Shown: piece by piece, positions 18,041 through 36,338 of the stretch
Position numbering within the stretch: the first letter of the stretch is position 1
Layout: each line of letters starts with the position of its first letter
Assembly (NCBI GenBank): GCA_022561875.1
Contig: JADFQJ010000021.1
Span: 1 to 43,602, forward strand
Direction of reading: 5' to 3'
Length of the DNA stretch: 43,602 bases
DNA from: Bacteroidota bacterium
GTDB taxonomy: Bacteria; Bacteroidota; Bacteroidia; Bacteroidales; VadinHA17
Translations under genes and position numbers: made by a program
Notes under the pieces: generated by a model
The model's database searches: none
Seen by the model: the letters and a program-made list of their open reading frames with translations, nothing else
Told to the model about the DNA's origin: nothing

Positions 18041-19180
18041 ATGGAAAATTTTATTGCTTATAATCCTGTGAAACTTCATTTCGGGAGAAACGTTACAAAC
18101 GAACTGGGTAATGTAGCTGCATCATATGGAAAAAATATTCTGTTGGTCTATGGAAAGGGTTCTGTGAAAAAACACGGATATTATGACCTGGTCGTAAAGC
18201 AACTTAAATCAGTCGATTGCAGAATTTATGAATTTAGTGGCATTAAACCGAACCCATTGGTTGACGATGTTGACGATGCTGTAAAGTATGCTATTGATAA
18301 AAGTATTGATGCAATCGTTGCTCTTGGTGGCGGAAGTGTGATCGATTCTGCCAAGATCATCTCTGTTTGTATCCCGGGAAACCATAAAGGCTGGGATATT
18401 ATGAAACGTAACGTGACACCCGATAAAGCGATTCCGGTGATCGCTATTCTCACCCTGGCAGCTACAGGAACCGAGATGAATTCGAATGCCGTGCTGCAAA
18501 ATCCTGCAACCATGGAAAAAATCGGTTACAATAACAAGCATACCTTTCCTGCACACTCTTTTCTCGATCCGCAGTTTACATACAGTGTGCCACCCAACCA
18601 AACAGCTTATGGAATCGTTGACCTGATCGCTCATGCACTCGAGGTTTTCTTTGGTAAAGGGGAATCAAGTCTTTCCGACCGTTTTATCGCTTCTATCATT
18701 CGTGATGCAATGCATTACGGACCTCTTTTAATGAAAGAGCCCCTTAATTATGATTACAGGGCAAATATCATGTGGGATGCCACATGTGCTTTGAATGGAA
18801 TCACAAGCTGGGGGAAAGCGGATGGTGACTGGGGTGTTCATGCTATCGGACACCAGCTATCCATGCTGTATGATCTGCCACACGGCGCTACCCTGTCCAT
18901 TGTATACCCGGCATGGCTGAAACTACAACATAATCGCATTCCTGAAAGAATTCAAACGCTTGGAAAACTGATTTTTGATACGGAAAACGCCAAGGAAACT
19001 ATTGAAAACTTAACCCGGTTTTTCTCTTCACTAAATAGCCCTGTAAATCTCGCCGAAGTCCAGATCGGAAACGATAAAAAAGCCGAAATTATAAAGCTGA
19101 TGAACAAGAACAAAGTAACCGGGTTCTGCCATAAGCTGTCAGATAATGACCATGTGCTCCTGGTTAACCATATGATGTAG
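18041..19180 (+). CDS. Iron-containing alcohol dehydrogenase (BdhA/YqhD type)
   Basis: A 379-aa group III alcohol dehydrogenase, NAD(P)H-linked, likely reducing aldehydes to alcohols. The nucleotide-binding region shows KNILLVYGKGSVKK and the conserved GGGSVIDSAK. Metal ligands fit DLIAHALEVFF and HAIGHQLSMLYDLPHG. The start MENFIAYNPVKLHFGR is typical of YqhD/BdhA. The last residues (LVNHMM) are slightly short compared with relatives but no frameshift is evident. A purine-rich repeat array begins directly after the stop. Confidence 0.92.
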   Translation: MENFIAYNPVKLHFGRNVTNELGNVAASYGKNILLVYGKGSVKKHGYYDLVVKQLKSVDCRIYEFSGIKPNPLVDDVDDAVKYAIDKSIDAIVALGGGSVIDSAKIISVCIPGNHKGWDIMKRNVTPDKAIPVIAILTLAATGTEMNSNAVLQNPATMEKIGYNNKHTFPAHSFLDPQFTYSVPPNQTAYGIVDLIAHALEVFFGKGESSLSDRFIASIIRDAMHYGPLLMKEPLNYDYRANIMWDATCALNGITSWGKADGDWGVHAIGHQLSMLYDLPHGATLSIVYPAWLKLQHNRIPERIQTLGKLIFDTENAKETIENLTRFFSSLNSPVNLAEVQIGNDKKAEIIKLMNKNKVTGFCHKLSDNDHVLLVNHMM

Positions 19181-19440
19181 AGGGAGCGAAGAGAGAGGGG
19201 GAGACGGAGAGAATGGGCGAAAAAGAGAAGAGGTGATGAGGAGAAGAGGTGATGAGGTGATGAGGAGATGAAGTGGAGAAGTGAAGAAAGGCAGAAGGCA
19301 GAAGGCAAAAATGAAGATAGAGATGAGAAATGAGAGGTGAGTAGTGAGAAAGAAGTAGGAAGTAGGAAGTAGGAAGTAGGAAGTAAGGAGAAAAGAGAGC
19401 GGTGAGAGGTGAGAGGTGAGAAATGCGAGGAAAAAAGAGA
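19181..19440 (+). repeat. Purine-rich composite heptad array
   Basis: About 260 nt, nearly all A/G plus some T on the plus strand, starting at the adh stop. Clear subarrays are GGCAGAA x3 (19290-19310), AGTAGGA x4 plus AGTAAGG (19354-19388) and GGTGAGA x3 (19401-19421), with GATGAGG-type runs at 19230-19270. The whole 370-nt spacer to mntA holds no gene. The GGCAGAA family recurs in the opposite orientation at 21624-21672. Confidence 0.8.
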
Positions 19441-21463: not shown

Positions 21464-21469
21464 AATGAA

Positions 21470-21532
21470 CTGGTTACTGGGTGCTGGGTACTGGGCGCTG
21501 GGTACTGGGTACTGGGCGCTGGGCGCTGGATC
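21470..21532 (-). repeat. CTGGGNG heptad array, 9 units
   Basis: On the plus strand: CTGGTTA, CTGGGTG, CTGGGTA, CTGGGCG, two CTGGGTA, two CTGGGCG, CTGGATC, in unbroken register. In the sense of the minus-strand gene it is a CNCCCAG array ending 6 nt upstream of the SorE-like ATG. Confidence 0.88.
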
Positions 21533-21623
21533 AGTTTTTTTTCTAAACATTTTTTAAACCTAATAGACAAGGCATGCCTTTTCTCTTCAAACATATTCAA
21601 ACCTTCAGATTCTTCATTCTTCA

Positions 21624-21672
21624 CCTTTGCTTTCTGCCTTCTGCCTTTTGCCTTCTGCCTTCTGCCTTTCTT
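21624..21672 (-). repeat. CTTCTGC heptad array, about 7 units
   Basis: CCTTTGC, TTTCTGC, CTTCTGC, CTTTTGC, CTTCTGC, CTTCTGC, CTTTCTT in near-perfect 7-nt register. In gene sense it reads GGCAGAA and lies 10 nt after the aldolase/dehydrogenase stop, the same family and sense as the array after the adh stop. Confidence 0.82.
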
Positions 21673-21681
21673 CTCCTCTTC

Positions 21682-24896: not shown

Positions 24897-24900
24897 TATA

Positions 24901-24942
24901 CTGGGTGCTGGGTGCTGGGTGCTGGGTGCTGGGTACTGGTTT
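24901..24942 (-). repeat. CTGGGTG heptad array, 6 units
   Basis: Four identical CTGGGTG units then CTGGGTA and CTGGTTT. In gene sense it is a CACCCAG array ending 4 nt upstream of the PHP gene ATG. The complementary array is at 25052-25072. Confidence 0.9.
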
Positions 24943-25051
24943 ATGAAATGATTATATAACCCGGTATTTTTAAGTGATCCTGTTTCAAACAGTGTTTTTA
25001 TAACTCTTTTAATTTTTATTTTAAACAGTTAAACATTTCTAAACAAACAAG

Positions 25052-25072
25052 CAACCATCACCCGGCACCCAG
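25052..25072 (-). repeat. Complementary heptads after HAD stop
   Basis: CAACCAT, CACCCGG, CACCCAG on the plus strand, 7 nt from the HAD stop codon. In gene sense it reads CTGGGTG-CCGGGTG and can pair with the CACCCAG units before the next start codon. Confidence 0.75.
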
Positions 25073-30495: not shown

Positions 30496-31215
30496 ATGTC
30501 CGGTAAAAAGCAAAATTTACCCCGTTACCGCCAGGTTTATGAGATACTCAGAAAACACATTGTGAACGGTGTTTACCAGGAGGGTGACATGCTGCCTTCA
30601 GAGAATGACCTGTGCCAAACTAATGGAATTACTCGTCCAACTGTGCGGCTGGCGCTTGATCAACTCGTAAAAGACGGTTTTATTAAGAAACAGAAAGGTA
30701 AAGGGAGCATTGTTTGTGCGCAGCCAAAGGGAATTGGCATCCTGTCTGTTGCAGGTACCACTTCCGCTATTGGAAAAGAGAACCTGAAAACAAAGATACT
30801 GGTGGGACCTGTGATCAGGAAATGGGATGATCCCTTTATGTTTCCCCTCTCCGATGTGGAAAAAGAGTCCGGTTGTATTTACATGGAAAGAGTCAGACTG
30901 GTAAACAATAAACCCCTGTTTTACGATATCACATTTTTACCCAACATAAATCTCCCCCGTTTTACTTCCAGGAAATTTGAAAACAGGTCGCTTTTTGATA
31001 TTTTAAGAAGATCGTACCAGGTTGAAGTAACAGGTGGAGAACAAAGTCTGAAAGCAATTACGGCAAAAGGAAAAATTTGTCAACATCTGGATGTTCAGGA
31101 AGGAGATCCTGTATTGCATCTGGAAAGGAAGATCAACACCAACCGCATTGATTTCAGTTTCTATTCCACTTTATTCTGCAATACCATCGAACATGCTTTG
31201 TTTGGGATATTTTAA
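30496..31215 (+). CDS. GntR/HutC family regulator (UTRA domain)
   Basis: A 239-aa repressor-type protein. The N-terminal winged helix (about 8-75) has YRQVYEILRKHIVNGVYQEG, LPSENDLCQTNGITRPTVRLAL and the wing FIKKQKGKGSIV. The C-terminal UTRA effector domain (about 90-235) has YMERVRLVNNKP and a final DFSFYSTLFC. UTRA domains sense small sugars or organic acids. It is divergent from the E2-E1 operon and convergent with fucK, whose 3' end it overlaps by 45 nt. Paired palindromes in the spacer make E2-E1 its most likely target, with the fucose genes possible. Confidence 0.92.
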   Translation: MSGKKQNLPRYRQVYEILRKHIVNGVYQEGDMLPSENDLCQTNGITRPTVRLALDQLVKDGFIKKQKGKGSIVCAQPKGIGILSVAGTTSAIGKENLKTKILVGPVIRKWDDPFMFPLSDVEKESGCIYMERVRLVNNKPLFYDITFLPNINLPRFTSRKFENRSLFDILRRSYQVEVTGGEQSLKAITAKGKICQHLDVQEGDPVLHLERKINTNRIDFSFYSTLFCNTIEHALFGIF

Positions 31216-32673
31216 TTCCAGGTACTGTTCATAAATTTCGATGTAGGACATGGCATCAAGTGAAGGTTCGTAGACATCTCCCGTGTAATTTATTGCATTT
31301 CCGGCTTCATCAGGTGATGAAAACAGGTTAACGCCTGACATTACAAACAATGCTGCGCCCAGAACGGTGGTTTCTTTTTGTTCAATAAGTTTAACAGGTA
31401 TACCCAGCACATCCGCTCTTATCTGGTTCCACAGTTTATTCTTCGATCCTCCTCCCACACAAACCAGAGAATCAGCTTTGAATTTTCCGATTTTTTGCAA
31501 CTGATCGAGTCTTTCGCGGGTTCTGCATGACAATGATTCGAGAGCAGCACGATAAATATCACCACGTGAAGTTTCCATTGTCAGATTGCTTATAAATCCT
31601 GAATCTGTTCCACCCGGTGTGTGATAGAACGAGGTATCAATCCTTATGCCATTACTTCCGACTTTTATTTTCCGTGCTTCATCGATCATTATCTCATAGA
31701 TATTCTCACTATCAAGCTCTTTTGCAAAAAACATTTTTTTTAACCACTCCAATGCACCCGAAGCGATCCACTGTACTCCCATATTATATAAACCGGGCAA
31801 TGGATCAAACTCTGTTGAAACTCCACACTTTAGCGCTTTATCTGAAGTATCAATATTGGATGTCCTAACCATTAAAATCTCCCATGTTCCGGAACTCAGG
31901 ACAGGCATGTTTTCTGCAGCGCCTGAGCCAAAAATTGCAAACTGTGTATCATGACCGGTTGCTACAACAGGGATACCCGCCGGAATACCTGTTTCTATCG
32001 ATGCTTGATGAGTAATTTTACCAATTACCTCTCCTGGTTCTACCATTTGCGGAAAAATATTATCTGAAATTCCGATTGAGTTCAGTATTTCCTGTGAGAA
32101 CGATCTTTTTCGCAGATCTGTAAGCATTGAGGTTCCTGCCATTGAACTATCGGTTACCATTTCACCTGTAAGGAAGTAGAGAAAGATTGAAGGGATAAAA
32201 ATAAACCAATCCATCTGATCAATGATCGCGGGCCTGTTTTCCTTCAACCAGATAAGTCTGTTTATTGTGTTAAAAATAAAAGGTTGAAGTCCGTTAATAC
32301 CAAAAAGGTGTTCCAGGGGTATATACTTCCCGATATTCTTCATCACAGGATCAGTCCGCGGGCATTGCCAGGAAATTACCGGATAAAGCATTTTTCCGGA
32401 TTTAGTAAAAGGCGCACCATCGACACCGAAGGTGGTTACAGTAATTCCGGCAATATTTTCAGGTTTGATCTTTTCAAGAACTTTTGCAGAAGTGGTTTTA
32501 AACTTATTCCATATCTCATTCACATCCCATATCCTGTAATTTTTATTTTCAGGATCAGGTCGTGTATTATTGCTCACTGATGCTGAAGCAAGTATCTCTC
32601 CTTTTTCACCAACTGCAATTGTTCTGACGTTAGTAGCGCCACAATCGAGGACAAGTATGATTTTTTGTTTCAT
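31171..32673 (-). CDS. fucK: L-fuculokinase FucK
   Basis: A 500-aa FGGY kinase that makes L-fuculose 1-phosphate. It closely tracks E. coli FucK: ILVLDCGATNVRTIAV, GITVTTFGVDGAPF, YPVISWQCPRTDPVMKNI, FNTINRLIWLKENRP, MAGTSMLTDL, ATGHDTQFAIFGSGA, LSSGTWEILMVRTS and VCVGGGSKNKLWNQIRADVLGIPVK-like C-terminus. It is downstream of fucI (229-nt spacer) and runs convergently into gntR. A 17-unit heptad array ends 4 nt before its ATG. Confidence 0.94.
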   Translation of the reverse strand: MKQKIILVLDCGATNVRTIAVGEKGEILASASVSNNTRPDPENKNYRIWDVNEIWNKFKTTSAKVLEKIKPENIAGITVTTFGVDGAPFTKSGKMLYPVISWQCPRTDPVMKNIGKYIPLEHLFGINGLQPFIFNTINRLIWLKENRPAIIDQMDWFIFIPSIFLYFLTGEMVTDSSMAGTSMLTDLRKRSFSQEILNSIGISDNIFPQMVEPGEVIGKITHQASIETGIPAGIPVVATGHDTQFAIFGSGAAENMPVLSSGTWEILMVRTSNIDTSDKALKCGVSTEFDPLPGLYNMGVQWIASGALEWLKKMFFAKELDSENIYEIMIDEARKIKVGSNGIRIDTSFYHTPGGTDSGFISNLTMETSRGDIYRAALESLSCRTRERLDQLQKIGKFKADSLVCVGGGSKNKLWNQIRADVLGIPVKLIEQKETTVLGAALFVMSGVNLFSSPDEAGNAINYTGDVYEPSLDAMSYIEIYEQYLELKYPKQSMFDGIAE

Positions 32674-32677
32674 ATTT

Positions 32678-32796
32678 CTGGTTTCTGGTTACTGGGTGCT
32701 GGTTACTGGTTACTGGTTTCTGGTTACTGGTTACTGGTTACTGGTTACTGGGTACTGGGTACTGGGCGCTGGGCGCTGGGCGCTGGGCGCTGGTTT
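32678..32796 (-). repeat. CTGGTTA/CTGGGNG heptad array, 17 units
   Basis: The longest array: 119 nt, exactly 17 heptads without a register break. Mainly CTGGTTA at the gene end, then two CTGGGTA, four CTGGGCG and a CTGGTTT. In gene sense it is a NANCCAG array ending 4 nt upstream of the fucK ATG. Confidence 0.92.
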
Positions 32797-32861
32797 AGAA
32801 AAATGATCAATCTTTCAACTAAACATACAATGATTTTATAAATAATTGAAATATAGCATAT

Positions 32862-32896
32862 TAACCAGCAACTAGTAACAAGCAACCAGCAACTAG
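32862..32896 (-). repeat. Complementary heptads after fucI stop
   Basis: TAACCAG, CAACTAG, TAACAAG, CAACCAG, CAACTAG on the plus strand, ending 6 nt from the fucI stop codon. They are complementary to the CTGGTTA-type units at 32678-32796, with a 65-nt gap. Confidence 0.82.
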
Positions 32897-32902
32897 TGTT
32901 TA

Positions 32903-34717
32903 TCAACCATACAGAGGGCCATAATTTTTACATGCCCTGAAATCAGCCCCTTCAGGATTTTTTGTACCGAACATACTCCAGGCAGCCGGTCGGAATATGC
33001 GATTTGCCGGAACATTATGCATGTTGACAGGTATCCTGAGCATAGAAGCGAGTGTAATAAGCTTATCACCAATATGACCATAGCTGACAGCACCATGATT
33101 TGCACCCCAGTTTGCCATAACCGAATAAACATCAGAAAAGGCACCTTCACCTGTCAATTCAGGCACAAACCATGTTGTTGGCCAGGTAGGATTTGTACGC
33201 TCGTCCAGTATCCGGTGAACCTCCAGGTCTAATATAACTGTATATCCTTCAGCTATTTGCAATACAGGACCTATTCCTTTGACAATATTTACCCTGCACA
33301 TTGTGACCGGCATTTCAGCTTCGGTATTAAAATTAGAAGAAAATCCACCACCTCTGAAATACCCCTGATCGGCGGGACTCCATACAGTAGAATCCAGGCA
33401 AGCCTGTACATCTTCATCAGTAATATCCCAGAAAGGCTTCATGGCAGGTTTATCCCCATATTTCATCTTTCCGGTGGCATCCAGGGTAGTTGATCCCGAG
33501 TTGATCAAATGTATTATCCCACCAGATGCTTTTCCGGTCAGCTCTTTACCTGTAACACGTTTAACTGCAGCGGGGCTCCAACAGGTTCTTACATCAGAGA
33601 AAATCTGGGCTGTATCTGTCAGAAGGTTTCCAAAAGCCATAGATACCCCGTTAAGAGTATCATTTTCGGTAGCTACAAGGAAAGGTTGCCTGATACCGTT
33701 CCAATCGAAGGAAGAATTAAGGATAGCCTCCATAAAGTCGCCATTAGGGAAATGGTCTGTCCACTGGCGTTGTCCCTGGAAACCGGAGATCAAAGCATTG
33801 AATCCGGCAGCTTCTTCACCAAAACCAAAATCTGCAAGTTTTGGATTTCCTATCATCAGATCGCGTGTAATCATAGTCATTTTCACAACGGTCTCCCACT
33901 CGTATTCTTTCCTTTCACGTGTAACCTGATTCTCAGGCGAATTCAGATCATCTCCCTCTTTGCAATATTTTTTCACCCAACTAACAGCCTGTTTATATTC
34001 TTCTTCATCATATATCTTCCTTTCGATACGCCGTGTAAATTCACTCATATCTACCGATTCGGTTCTCATACCCAGGTAGTCGGCAAAAAATGCATGGTCG
34101 ATAGCAGACCCGGCGATCCCCATTGATACAGACCCCATAGAGAGATACGATTTATTCTTCATTTCAGCAACTGCAAGTCCTGCCTTGGCAAACTTCAGCA
34201 ATTTTTCACCAACATCATCAGGTATTGAATTATCATCACTATCCTGAACATCGCGCCCATAGATCCCGAATGCAGGCAAGCCTTTCTGTGCATAGCCGGC
34301 AAGTGCAGCAGCAAGATAAACTGCTCCCGGACGTTCTGTTCCGTTAAAACCCCATACGGCTTTAGGTATCAGGGGGTCGCTATCCATCACCTCAGTACCG
34401 TAACACCAGCATGGAGTAACTGTAAGAGAAACACCTACTCCTTCGCGTGCAAATTTTTCAGCACATTGAGCTGCTTCAGCAACTCTTCCGATAGTTGTAT
34501 CTGCTATAACACATTCAACCGGTAAACCATTCGGATGTCTGATATTATCAGTTAAGAATCCGGCTACCGATTTAGCCATATTCATTGTTTGATTCTCAAG
34601 TGACTCTCTTACTCCCTGCCTCCTTCCATCTATAACAGGTCTTATCCCTATAGCAGGAAGTCTGCCAACCAGTCTTTGAACAGGTGAATTCATTTTGAAC
34701 TTCACTGATGTTCCCAT
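32903..34717 (-). CDS. fucI: L-fucose isomerase FucI
   Basis: A 604-aa isomerase converting L-fucose to L-fuculose. It follows E. coli FucI nearly throughout: [118 protein letters not shown], and the end [12 protein letters not shown]-like [12 protein letters not shown]. The Mn2+ ligands (Glu, Asp, His in these segments) look present. The first 25 residues are longer than E. coli's; Met9 is an alternative start. It leads the fucI-fucK pair, downstream of the GH29 gene. Confidence 0.96.
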
Positions 34718-34816: not shown

Positions 34817-34946
34817 TAATGAAATTGCATCCTGCCAAACCCTCAATTCTTTGAAACCCCTATTTTTTTTTCCTTTCTTCCCCTGTAGAAATAGATCCTG
34901 CGTCGCATTTCACCCCGACACGGTCATTCTTCCCTGCGGGGCAGGC

Positions 34947-34986
34947 ATTATTCCACTATTCCATCTTTCCATTCTTCCATCCTTCT
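34947..34986 (-). repeat. Octad array spanning GH29 stop
   Basis: ATTATTCC, ACTATTCC, ATCTTTCC, ATTCTTCC, ATCCTTCT: five octads in register. The GH29 stop codon (34956-34958) and its last codons lie inside the array, so the repeat encodes the protein's final residues (GWKNGKME). Confidence 0.82.
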
Positions 34987-36338
34987 ATCCTGAATACCCA
35001 GGCATATTTACAGGGACGATTTTCCTGTTCCTGAAGCTCTACCGGCAAACGAATAACAAAATTGTCATCACTGTCTGTTTCCCATTTAAGAGGTATTTCA
35101 TATCCGAGAAGTATCACATCTGTGCCTTCATCAGCTTTAACACTTTCCAGCTTCAGAGTTTCGCCAGGCCATTCCAGGGCTACAGCGTAAATGAATTCCT
35201 CACTCTTACTTTTTATGAACCGGATATTCTCACCTTCTTTATAGAATTCGAATGGAATTGTATTATATATCACTTCAGAATTCACATTCATCCAATCGCC
35301 CATCTCAGAGAGGCGTTCAACACTCGGACCAGGGATCATCCCTTCAGAGGTAGGACCCACATTTAAAAGGTAATTACCTCCTTTTGCAGCAATATCCACC
35401 AGGTTATGTATCAGCATTTTGGATGATTTCCAGTTGTGATCATGTTTTTTAAAACCCCAGGTATCGTTCATGGTCATGCATGATTCCCAGTCCAGATCAG
35501 ATTTTCCTTCGAGGATCGACTGTTCAGGTGTTCCAAAGTCTCCGGCATATTCACTACCTTTGTTCATTCCCTGCATACCCTTTCGTCCTTTGCCAACGCG
35601 GTTGTTTATAATTATATCAGGTTGAAGATTACGGACATAATTATACATATCTTTTCCTTGTTCCTCGGTCCACTCCTCTATCCACTCCCCGTCAAACCAG
35701 AGAACACCAATATCTCCGTAACCTGTAAGTAACTCCTTAAGCTGGGGTTTTAAATAGTTTTCACGGTAATCAGGAAAATTATCTCCTTTGGCATCCGGGT
35801 GGTGCCAATCCATTATTGAATGATAAAAACAAAGTTTTATATCCGCATTTTTACATGCTTTTGATAATTCTTTCAATATATCACGATCGTACGGTGTATA
35901 ATCTATAATGTTATAATCTGTAAGTTCTGTATGCCACAAACAAAATCCATCGTGATGCTTCGAAGTAATGACAATATATTTCATTCCCGCATCTTTTGCA
36001 ATCCTTACCCACTCTTTTGCATCAAACTTAACCGGATTAAACCGCCGGGCAAATTCTTCATATTCCTGTACCGGTATCTGAGCTTTATCCATTATCCACT
36101 CACCGATACCGGCAATTTCTTCACCCTTGTAAACACCGGCAGGCACAGCATAGGCGCCCCAATGAATGAACATCCCGAATCCGGCATCGCGCCACCATTT
36201 CATTCTTTGATCAAATATTTCTCCAGATTCATTCAGATAATCACGTTTTTGTGCCTGGTTGCAGGAAACGAGCATGAATAATAGTAAACATGTTACACCA
36301 GACCGATTTAATTTAAGAAGCTTTTTAATAGTAAACAT
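34956..36338 (-). CDS. GH29 alpha-L-fucosidase, lipoprotein
   Basis: A 460-aa retaining fucosidase that releases L-fucose for FucI and FucK. Signal peptide with lipobox LVSC (Cys26) implies membrane anchoring. Family landmarks: FGMFIHWGAYAVPAG (54-68), SKHHDGFCLWHT (126-137), FYHSIMDWHHP, and VLWFDGEW, where Asp216 is the predicted nucleophile. GH29 acts mostly on alpha-1,3/1,4 and some alpha-1,2 linkages; the linkage is not readable here. The C-terminus is encoded by octad repeats. It is divergent from the GH109 gene. Confidence 0.94.
   Translation of the reverse strand: MFTIKKLLKLNRSGVTCLLLFMLVSCNQAQKRDYLNESGEIFDQRMKWWRDAGFGMFIHWGAYAVPAGVYKGEEIAGIGEWIMDKAQIPVQEYEEFARRFNPVKFDAKEWVRIAKDAGMKYIVITSKHHDGFCLWHTELTDYNIIDYTPYDRDILKELSKACKNADIKLCFYHSIMDWHHPDAKGDNFPDYRENYLKPQLKELLTGYGDIGVLWFDGEWIEEWTEEQGKDMYNYVRNLQPDIIINNRVGKGRKGMQGMNKGSEYAGDFGTPEQSILEGKSDLDWESCMTMNDTWGFKKHDHNWKSSKMLIHNLVDIAAKGGNYLLNVGPTSEGMIPGPSVERLSEMGDWMNVNSEVIYNTIPFEFYKEGENIRFIKSKSEEFIYAVALEWPGETLKLESVKADEGTDVILLGYEIPLKWETDSDDNFVIRLPVELQEQENRPCKYAWVFRIEGWKNGKME

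Follow-up and report, generated by a model that had tools for sequence, protein, structure and literature searches.

Why should the spacer between fucI and fucK carry two arrays of mutually complementary heptads, one directly after the stop codon of the first gene and the other directly ahead of the start codon of the second? In the window (the whole 43,602-nt stretch of DNA analysed here, which corresponds to contig C75 in a genome of 2.77 Mb and 104 contigs) this spacer is 229 nt long, running in gene sense from the fucI stop at 32903 to the fucK ATG at 32673. The features on which the analysis bears are:

32903..34717, minus strand: fucI, L-fucose isomerase (over the cut-off of NCBIfam TIGR01089/NF008220); its stop borders the element
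32865..32896, minus strand: left arm, in gene sense five degenerate heptads of the CTGG type (from the sequence and matches to loci L034 and L044)
32795..32864, minus strand: 70-nt core, a dispersed MITE-like repeat with copies elsewhere in its own genome and in congeners
32678..32793, minus strand: right arm, consisting in gene sense of 17 CCAG heptads (CTGG on the plus strand)
31171..32673, minus strand: fucK, L-fuculokinase (NCBIfam TIGR02628, 588 bits against a cut-off of 471); its start borders the element
24901..25072, minus strand: internally deleted IVP element (four-helix-bundle, PF05635), arms at about 25048-25072 and 24901-24939
21470..21529, minus strand: single CCAG-type arm ahead of a gene start, in a spacer that does not belong to those whose halves are complementary

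Two spacers with paired arms

The layout agrees with a sequence-only reading of the locus, which had described five heptads after the fucI stop and 17 complementary heptads toward the fucK ATG; the 65 nt that it placed between the arms is close to the 70 nt measured for the core. In gene sense the fucI stop is followed by TAAACA and then by CTAGTTG, CTGGTTG, CTTGTTA, CTAGTTG and CTGG(TTA), so that the linkers of this arm are TTG and TTA only (complement CAA and TAA), while the last unit of the right arm stands 4 nt from the fucK ATG and the array at 32678-32765 reaches a TRF score of 134. That the arms are complementary also stands: the spacer RNA folds at -62.3 kcal/mol (z -7.25; 0 of 200 shuffles as good) and its arm complementarity score is 21.0, as compared to a permuted mean of 8.2 for 30 spacers, and from fold and arm score together a stem closing the element by its inverted repeats is predicted. 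What the linkers do not bear out is the further claim that array and partner had changed together, with CTGGTTA units facing CAACCAG units: the 16 linkers between the CCAG units of the right arm are TAA (7), CGC (4), TAC (2), AAA (2) and CAC (1), and CAA does not occur.

The second locus to which the same reading had pointed, 24901-25072, also folds better than expected (z -4.20; 0 of 200 shuffles as good), with an arm complementarity score of 17.5 for the spacer at 24897 against the same permuted mean of 8.2. It aligns with two separated parts of an intact element of the same genome, L060 (82.5% over 80 nt and 83.6% over 55 nt), in which CTGG and CCAG arms enclose the ORF of a four-helix-bundle protein of 124 residues (TIGR02436, 86.5 bits; cut-off 24); only these two fragments of IVP-element sequence are retained at 24901-25072, and no IVP/S23 ORF. 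Since the fuc spacer holds a MITE-like repeat and the second locus a deleted IVP element, comparing them is not a matter of covariation at a homologous structure.

Heptad arrays are common in this genome. The window contains 10 period-7 segments with a score of 13 or more, as well as four of period 8 and two of period 9, with none in any of five Markov shuffles; 331,725 nt of the genome, a sample chosen around CTGG arrays, contain 86, 33 and 16 segments of periods 7, 8 and 9, respectively. Many heptad unit families coexist, and CTGGNNNCTGGNNNCTGG has 97 matches in the genome as compared to none for the reversed control. Two further arrays of the window may be mentioned here: a purine-rich period-7/period-8 mosaic (AAGGCAG, GAAGTAG, GAGAGGT) at 19219-19421, past the stop of the gene ending at 19180, and a period-8/16 array (TTCCATCC) at 34946-34991, at the stop end of the gene 34956-36338.

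The complementary stop/start 'design' that had been read from the two loci is not general. The fetched part of the genome contains 35 spacers with CTGG/CCAG arrays, of which 30 were tested (one intact IVP spacer and, by length, four others were omitted); a score of 15 or more was reached by two of them, the very two loci cited, and as a set the 30 spacers show no arm complementarity (7.5 as compared to 8.2 permuted, with 4514 of 5000 shuffles as good), which leads us to reject general stop/start pairing over all CTGG arrays. Most CTGG arrays in the fetched part of the genome are single arms without a partner. Arrays nearest a start are, in gene sense, mostly of the CCAG type (24, as compared to two CTGG), and those nearest a stop follow no rule (eight CTGG, 11 CCAG); we infer that this orientation stems from the symmetry of the element combined with loss of one arm. 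Parts of the arrangement are already known, as excerpts of two earlier accounts document. Heptads directly before starts, as here, are described for the TAACTGA repeats of Beggiatoaceae, Cyanobacteria and some Bacteroidetes, and in F. litoralis one reversed heptamer set directly follows a stop; in Beggiatoaceae these repeats were proposed to be sites of a translational regulator, with no IVP link in the excerpted text (PMC4679880). In Xanthomonas, where the GGGAATC heptamer arrays are likewise intergenic, two arrays in convergent orientation were counted in 70 cases in Xcc and 75 in Xac; the excerpted text interprets the arrays as G-quadruplex/SSR features and contains no IVP link either (PMC4692102).

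A dispersed core between the fuc arms

The sequence between the fuc arms recurs at other loci. Left arm and core together are 85% identical to L034 over 106 nt and 78% identical to L044 over 102 nt, and a search with the 70-nt core through the own genome and six genomes of the same genus gave 11 matches in five of the seven: five in the own genome (query included), one each in G014 and G016 and two each in G018 and G019, with none in G015 and G017. The copies at other loci match with E-values down to 2.5e-21. In an alignment of eight copies the fullest start near TTAATTAACTCAAGTTGC and finish near GCAACTTAGGTTAATTA, and next to each end, on the inner side, stand about four heptads (all by eye); the remaining copies are shortened at one side. 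The fuc copy has a degenerate left end and is missing the usual right end, in the place of which stands the 17-unit array, a right arm longer than in the other copies displayed; the simplest explanation for this arm would be local repeat expansion.

The fuc element thus resembles bacterial MITEs in being short, non-coding, multi-copy and dispersed, and, through the outer ends TTAATTAACTCAAGTTGC/GCAACTTAGGTTAATTA that we identified by eye in the fullest copies, in having terminal inverted repeats; it differs from them in that its inverted repeats are tandem heptad arrays of variable length. Around the core copies no clear target-site duplication was apparent by eye, and no precise empty core site was found. 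We know of no transposase with ends matching those of the core copies. The fuc core has no detectable similarity to IVP elements, and the fuc element contains no ORF.

Is this, then, an ordinary transposase-dependent MITE that is unrelated to IVP elements and merely shares their heptad ends? Such an origin would account for a core without IVP similarity and for the existence of 10 further copies, among which the fuller share similar ends, but not for the presence of CTGG heptad ends on an intact IVP element and on its deletion derivative in the very same genome, and we consider it unlikely. We think it probable that the fuc spacer is an inserted, non-coding MITE-like element with terminal inverted heptad arrays, which by its architecture falls into one class with IVP-coding members; for the core itself, it is architecture and the shared unit type that suggest a link to IVP elements.

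Inverted arrays around IVP genes

The family to which the protein of the intact element belongs, PF05635 (23S_rRNA_IVP), has 13 matches in the own genome and none in 14 control genomes; in a sample of the phylum it matches in 232 of 296 genomes, often several times per genome. To our knowledge, these four-helix-bundle/IVP proteins have no settled function. Solved homologues found by sequence are 2RLD and 2GSC, the latter being Xcc0516; the IVP protein of L058 has no match in a phage collection. The diversity-generating retroelement protein Avd is a member of a related four-helix-bundle family, which our search detected below its cut-off (NF033474, E 4e-5) and for which homology to the IVP family is stated in the excerpted text of PMC10053308. 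A reverse transcriptase partner for IVP was considered and rejected: while IVP matches occur in all seven genomes (in G017 a single one, below cut-off), reverse transcriptase (PF00078) matches occur in two of the seven, the own genome and G015, and in none of the other five, although some genomes are incomplete, and the two reverse transcriptases of the own genome are nearest to that of group II introns (TIGR04416, 266 and 255 bits for fragments, against a cut-off of 300). A reverse transcriptase is therefore not always present in the same genome as IVP.

Inverted short repeats flank the ORF at seven of the eight best IVP loci of the own genome, with a unit that differs from locus to locus: CAAGACG, AAGTAAG, GGCGANG, CTGGTTA, GGCAGTC, AGTTGGC and CTATTGA (picked by eye and then aligned). 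In the arms of L061 only nine bases align, and at the eighth locus, L063, the ORF is shortened and an array is found at the left only. We extended the survey to named genomes, analysing the best 80 of 532 IVP relatives; by their titles, these 80 come from Bacteroidota, WOR-3, Nitrospinia, Armatimonadetes, Chloroflexi, Lentisphaerae, Planctomycetes, Acidobacteria, Chlorobiota/Ignavibacteriae, Desulfobacteraceae, Syntrophaceae and Opitutia, although many are MAGs and single assignments may err. Beside the IVP ORFs autocorrelation peaks at 7, 14 and 21, and period-7 segments are found in 59 of 158 IVP-adjacent windows as compared to 0 of 151 windows about 700 nt away, which are mostly coding; in the same scan the figure is 16 for period 6, 1 for period 8 and 12 for period 9. 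After collapsing loci with common outer flanks to 49 sites, period 7 is found in 48 of 97 windows as compared to 0 of 91. In other intergenic gaps of the same loci, a small control, it is found in 3 of 22, with complementary halves in 0 of 13. No period-7 segment lies near the ORF at 17 of the 49 sites.

Do the two arms of an element match each other better than they match the arms of other elements? Across the 49 sites, own arms score 17.8, as compared to 9.64 ± 0.53 when shuffled between loci; the corresponding values are 16.5 and 9.6 ± 0.34 for 79 named loci (from the best 80 of 532; L073, with a right flank of 21 nt, was dropped from the arm tests) and 19.8 and 9.9 ± 0.55 for 35 loci of the own genome and genus, with 0 of 20,000 shuffles as high in each case. 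The last set comprises nine own loci out of 13 matches (L065, L067, L068 and L069 were left out, three of them weak and one the second half of L066) and 30 genus loci out of 51 matches, minus four at contig edges (L188, L192, L203 and L204). A score of 15 or more is reached by 30 of the 49 sites and by 5.8% of mismatched pairs, leaving 19 of the 49 below 15. Control windows 700 nt away score 8.63 against 8.30 (195 of 20,000 shuffles reach this value), and for 85 spacers of the own genome that contain no arrays the score is 8.49 against 7.55 (0 of 5000), a small excess in the latter that is perhaps due to terminators; the excess over shuffled is 1 or less in the controls and about 8 at IVP sites.

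The arms also follow the gene. IVP proteins that are at least 80% identical and lie at different sites share arms (10 pairs, eight of them from this genus): with same-site pairs omitted, the mean left-left arm score is 34.1 at 80-90% IVP identity and 43.5 at 90% and more, and below 60% identity the bin means are 8.7-9.0. As arm similarity tracks IVP identity, the arms appear to move together with the gene and to alter as it diverges. Covariation of unit sequence between elements is real. This is where the compensatory covariation within one genome that had been proposed in the sequence-only reading holds good, in that units change between elements and complementarity is kept; the two loci cited for it do not show it.

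These results bear on the possibility that heptads arise alone in intergenic DNA by simple slippage and that complementary pairs are chance meetings of recurrent units. Heptads are over-represented in many bacteria, as the excerpted Xanthomonas account states (PMC4692102), most arrays here are single arms, and many unit families coexist, all of which speak for slippage. However, matched arms outscore mismatched ones at IVP sites in each of three sets (0 of 20,000), and the fuc arms enclose a dispersed core, so that as a full account we regard slippage as quite improbable. It is likely to be how arms grow, the 17-unit right arm being an example.

Intact IVP elements differ in presence between congeners. 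The L060 element is absent in G015, where 7 nt separate the flanks, and in G014 and G018, where the spacer contains other heptads; that of L058 is absent in G015 (613 nt as compared to 75); and that of L059 is absent in G014, G015 and G016 (517, 538 and 572 nt as compared to 108, 33 and 93, respectively), with a single GGCGANG arm remaining in G014 and a CTGG arm in G016. For these three sites, the element is thus missing in all seven congener comparisons with both flanks on one contig. The single arms found where the full element is absent fit the many unpaired arrays. The flanks of L064 have no match in relatives. Shared sites also exist: two congener pairs, L195/L196 and L189/L193, have the IVP gene at one site, and 20 Flavobacteriaceae-type loci, L078 among them, share a single IVP site, which suggests that this copy is vertically kept and possibly domesticated.

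The orientation of the elements is strongly skewed. In raw counts based on simple ORF calling, a stop lies upstream and a start downstream, in sense, at 54 of the 85 collapsed IVP sites, and the start-to-stop arrangement does not occur; 13 are stop/stop, five start/start, and at 13 one side is without a called neighbour. Where the upstream neighbour was called (75 sites), it points in the same direction as IVP at 69.

Plasmids provide a further set, with 14 loci fetched out of 36 records matching IVP. Own arms score 21.0 as compared to 12.7 ± 1.3 shuffled (0 of 20,000), and 13 of the 14 loci score 14 or more, the exception being Oscillatoria L268, which has no arms; only seven of the 14 lie above the 95th percentile of mismatched pairs (23.0), because the Nostoc arms resemble one another. 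The strongest period is 7 in five loci, 8 in seven and 9 in two; periods 8 and 9 prevail in nine cyanobacterial loci (L260, L261 and L263-L269), and heptads are thus not universal. Of the 13 plasmid loci with an annotated neighbour, 10 have an upstream gene pointing in the same direction as IVP, and in L268 and L271 the IVP gene is antisense between two genes of the other strand. The IVP gene of Pseudanabaena galeata plasmid pPg_01 (L270) is flanked by long TTAGCTT-type heptad arms and occupies, in sense, the position between cas6 and cas4 in a CRISPR locus. In Azospirillum lipoferum 4B plasmid AZO_p2 (13380-15739, L272), the IVP gene lies in sense inside a 23S rRNA gene: the Rfam family LSU_rRNA_bacteria spans the whole locus, and heptad arms of the GACGGAT/GACAGAG type are found on both sides. 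As separate observations, the PLSDB gene table, in which RNA genes are not listed, contains no entry for the L272 IVP gene, and in five of the 14 plasmid loci (L263, L264, L265, L267 and L269) IVP is immediately followed by a gene annotated as an integrase or tyrosine recombinase.

The spacer in relatives and a possible history of the element

To see whether the fuc structure is kept with the operon, we searched the six genomes of the same genus and found fucI at E 1e-100 or better in three, in all of which fucK adjoins. The spacer of G015 is 15 nt long (fucI-TAA-CCAGTAACCAGTAAT-ATG); that of G014 contains a different element, with inverted heptads of the AAAAAAC/GTTTTTT type; and that of G016 retains a left arm 94.9% identical over 39 nt, followed by other heptad families, with the last two units being TAACCAG. 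In the more distant G024, a member of the family, the spacer is 31 nt long and has no heptads. The sequence-only reading had named arms that diverge independently in relatives as the observation that would speak against it, and this is what is seen: G016 keeps the left arm and has a right arm of two units as compared to 17. As the spacers of G014, G015 and G016 all differ, the arms change independently here and the structure is not conserved with the fuc operon.

A conserved cis-regulatory RNA hairpin of the operon, acting as an attenuator or in translation control and with its arms kept by compensatory change, would suit the strong predicted fold (z -7.25) and a stem that reaches from stop to start, but is very improbable given three congeners that have the gene pair and lack the structure or carry another spacer, a core that is repeated at other loci, and a window in which no Rfam family other than two tRNAs reaches the gathering score. 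On the orthologous spacers and the Rfam result we likewise reject a riboswitch or conserved attenuator. As an aside, an IVP gene fragment lies about 170 nt upstream of fucI in G014 (C172:7098-7301, L206).

How might an inserted MITE-like element, the reading that we favour, behave in this position? By analogy with rRNA intervening sequences, the transcribed arms would pair as a long stem between the two cistrons, and RNase III would probably cut the stem-flanked insert out of the transcript; the operon may tolerate the insert because it falls between cistrons. Coding copies would spread with the help of IVP, and non-coding copies would follow in trans, while arms may lengthen, shorten and lose partners through repeat slippage and deletion. 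More speculatively, IVP, as a relative of Avd, might act on the arms in mobility. The closest known system is the 23S rRNA intervening sequence with an S23/IVP ORF (Leptospira, Coxiella; PF05635, TIGR02436), in which, as here, inverted arms form a stem round the IVP ORF, whereas the fuc element and that at 24901 lie between protein genes, not within an rRNA gene, and the former has no ORF. For the Coxiella sequence, the excerpted account describes GACAGAT heptads ahead of the S23p ORF, along with a variable copy number and excision by RNase III, and the idea that intervening sequences are mobile-element remnants has been put forward before (PMC4990558). The Coxiella account is also the nearest that titles and abstract openings in the open-licence literature come to a general link between IVP and inverted heptad arms, none of which states one.

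A broader proposal is tentative, and we would sooner doubt it than assert it: IVP/S23 may be the coding core of widespread mobile intervening sequences with inverted short-repeat ends, mostly of heptads, which would spread mainly in sense through transcripts (between cistrons, in a CRISPR operon, in rRNA) and in a manner linked to RNA, with IVP acting on its own arms and non-coding derivatives moving in trans. If true, the heptamer repeats of Xanthomonas, Nostoc, Beggiatoaceae and Coxiella would have one origin; IVP proteins and the unexplained intergenic heptamer repeats would be joined into one testable object, the mobile intervening sequence; complementary repeats at stop and start codons would have a concrete reason; and the origin of rRNA intervening sequences would become directly testable.

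Other short sequences accompany heptad arrays in this material. A stretch around the palindrome AAGGCATGCCTT is common to three array-bearing spacers (window 21464-21681, L035 3790-4010 and L053 2306-2552), and a second short dispersed sequence around AAGTATAATATRCTRATAATATATCCAA, recognised by eye near heptad arrays in L062, L237 and L241, is probably another small element family.
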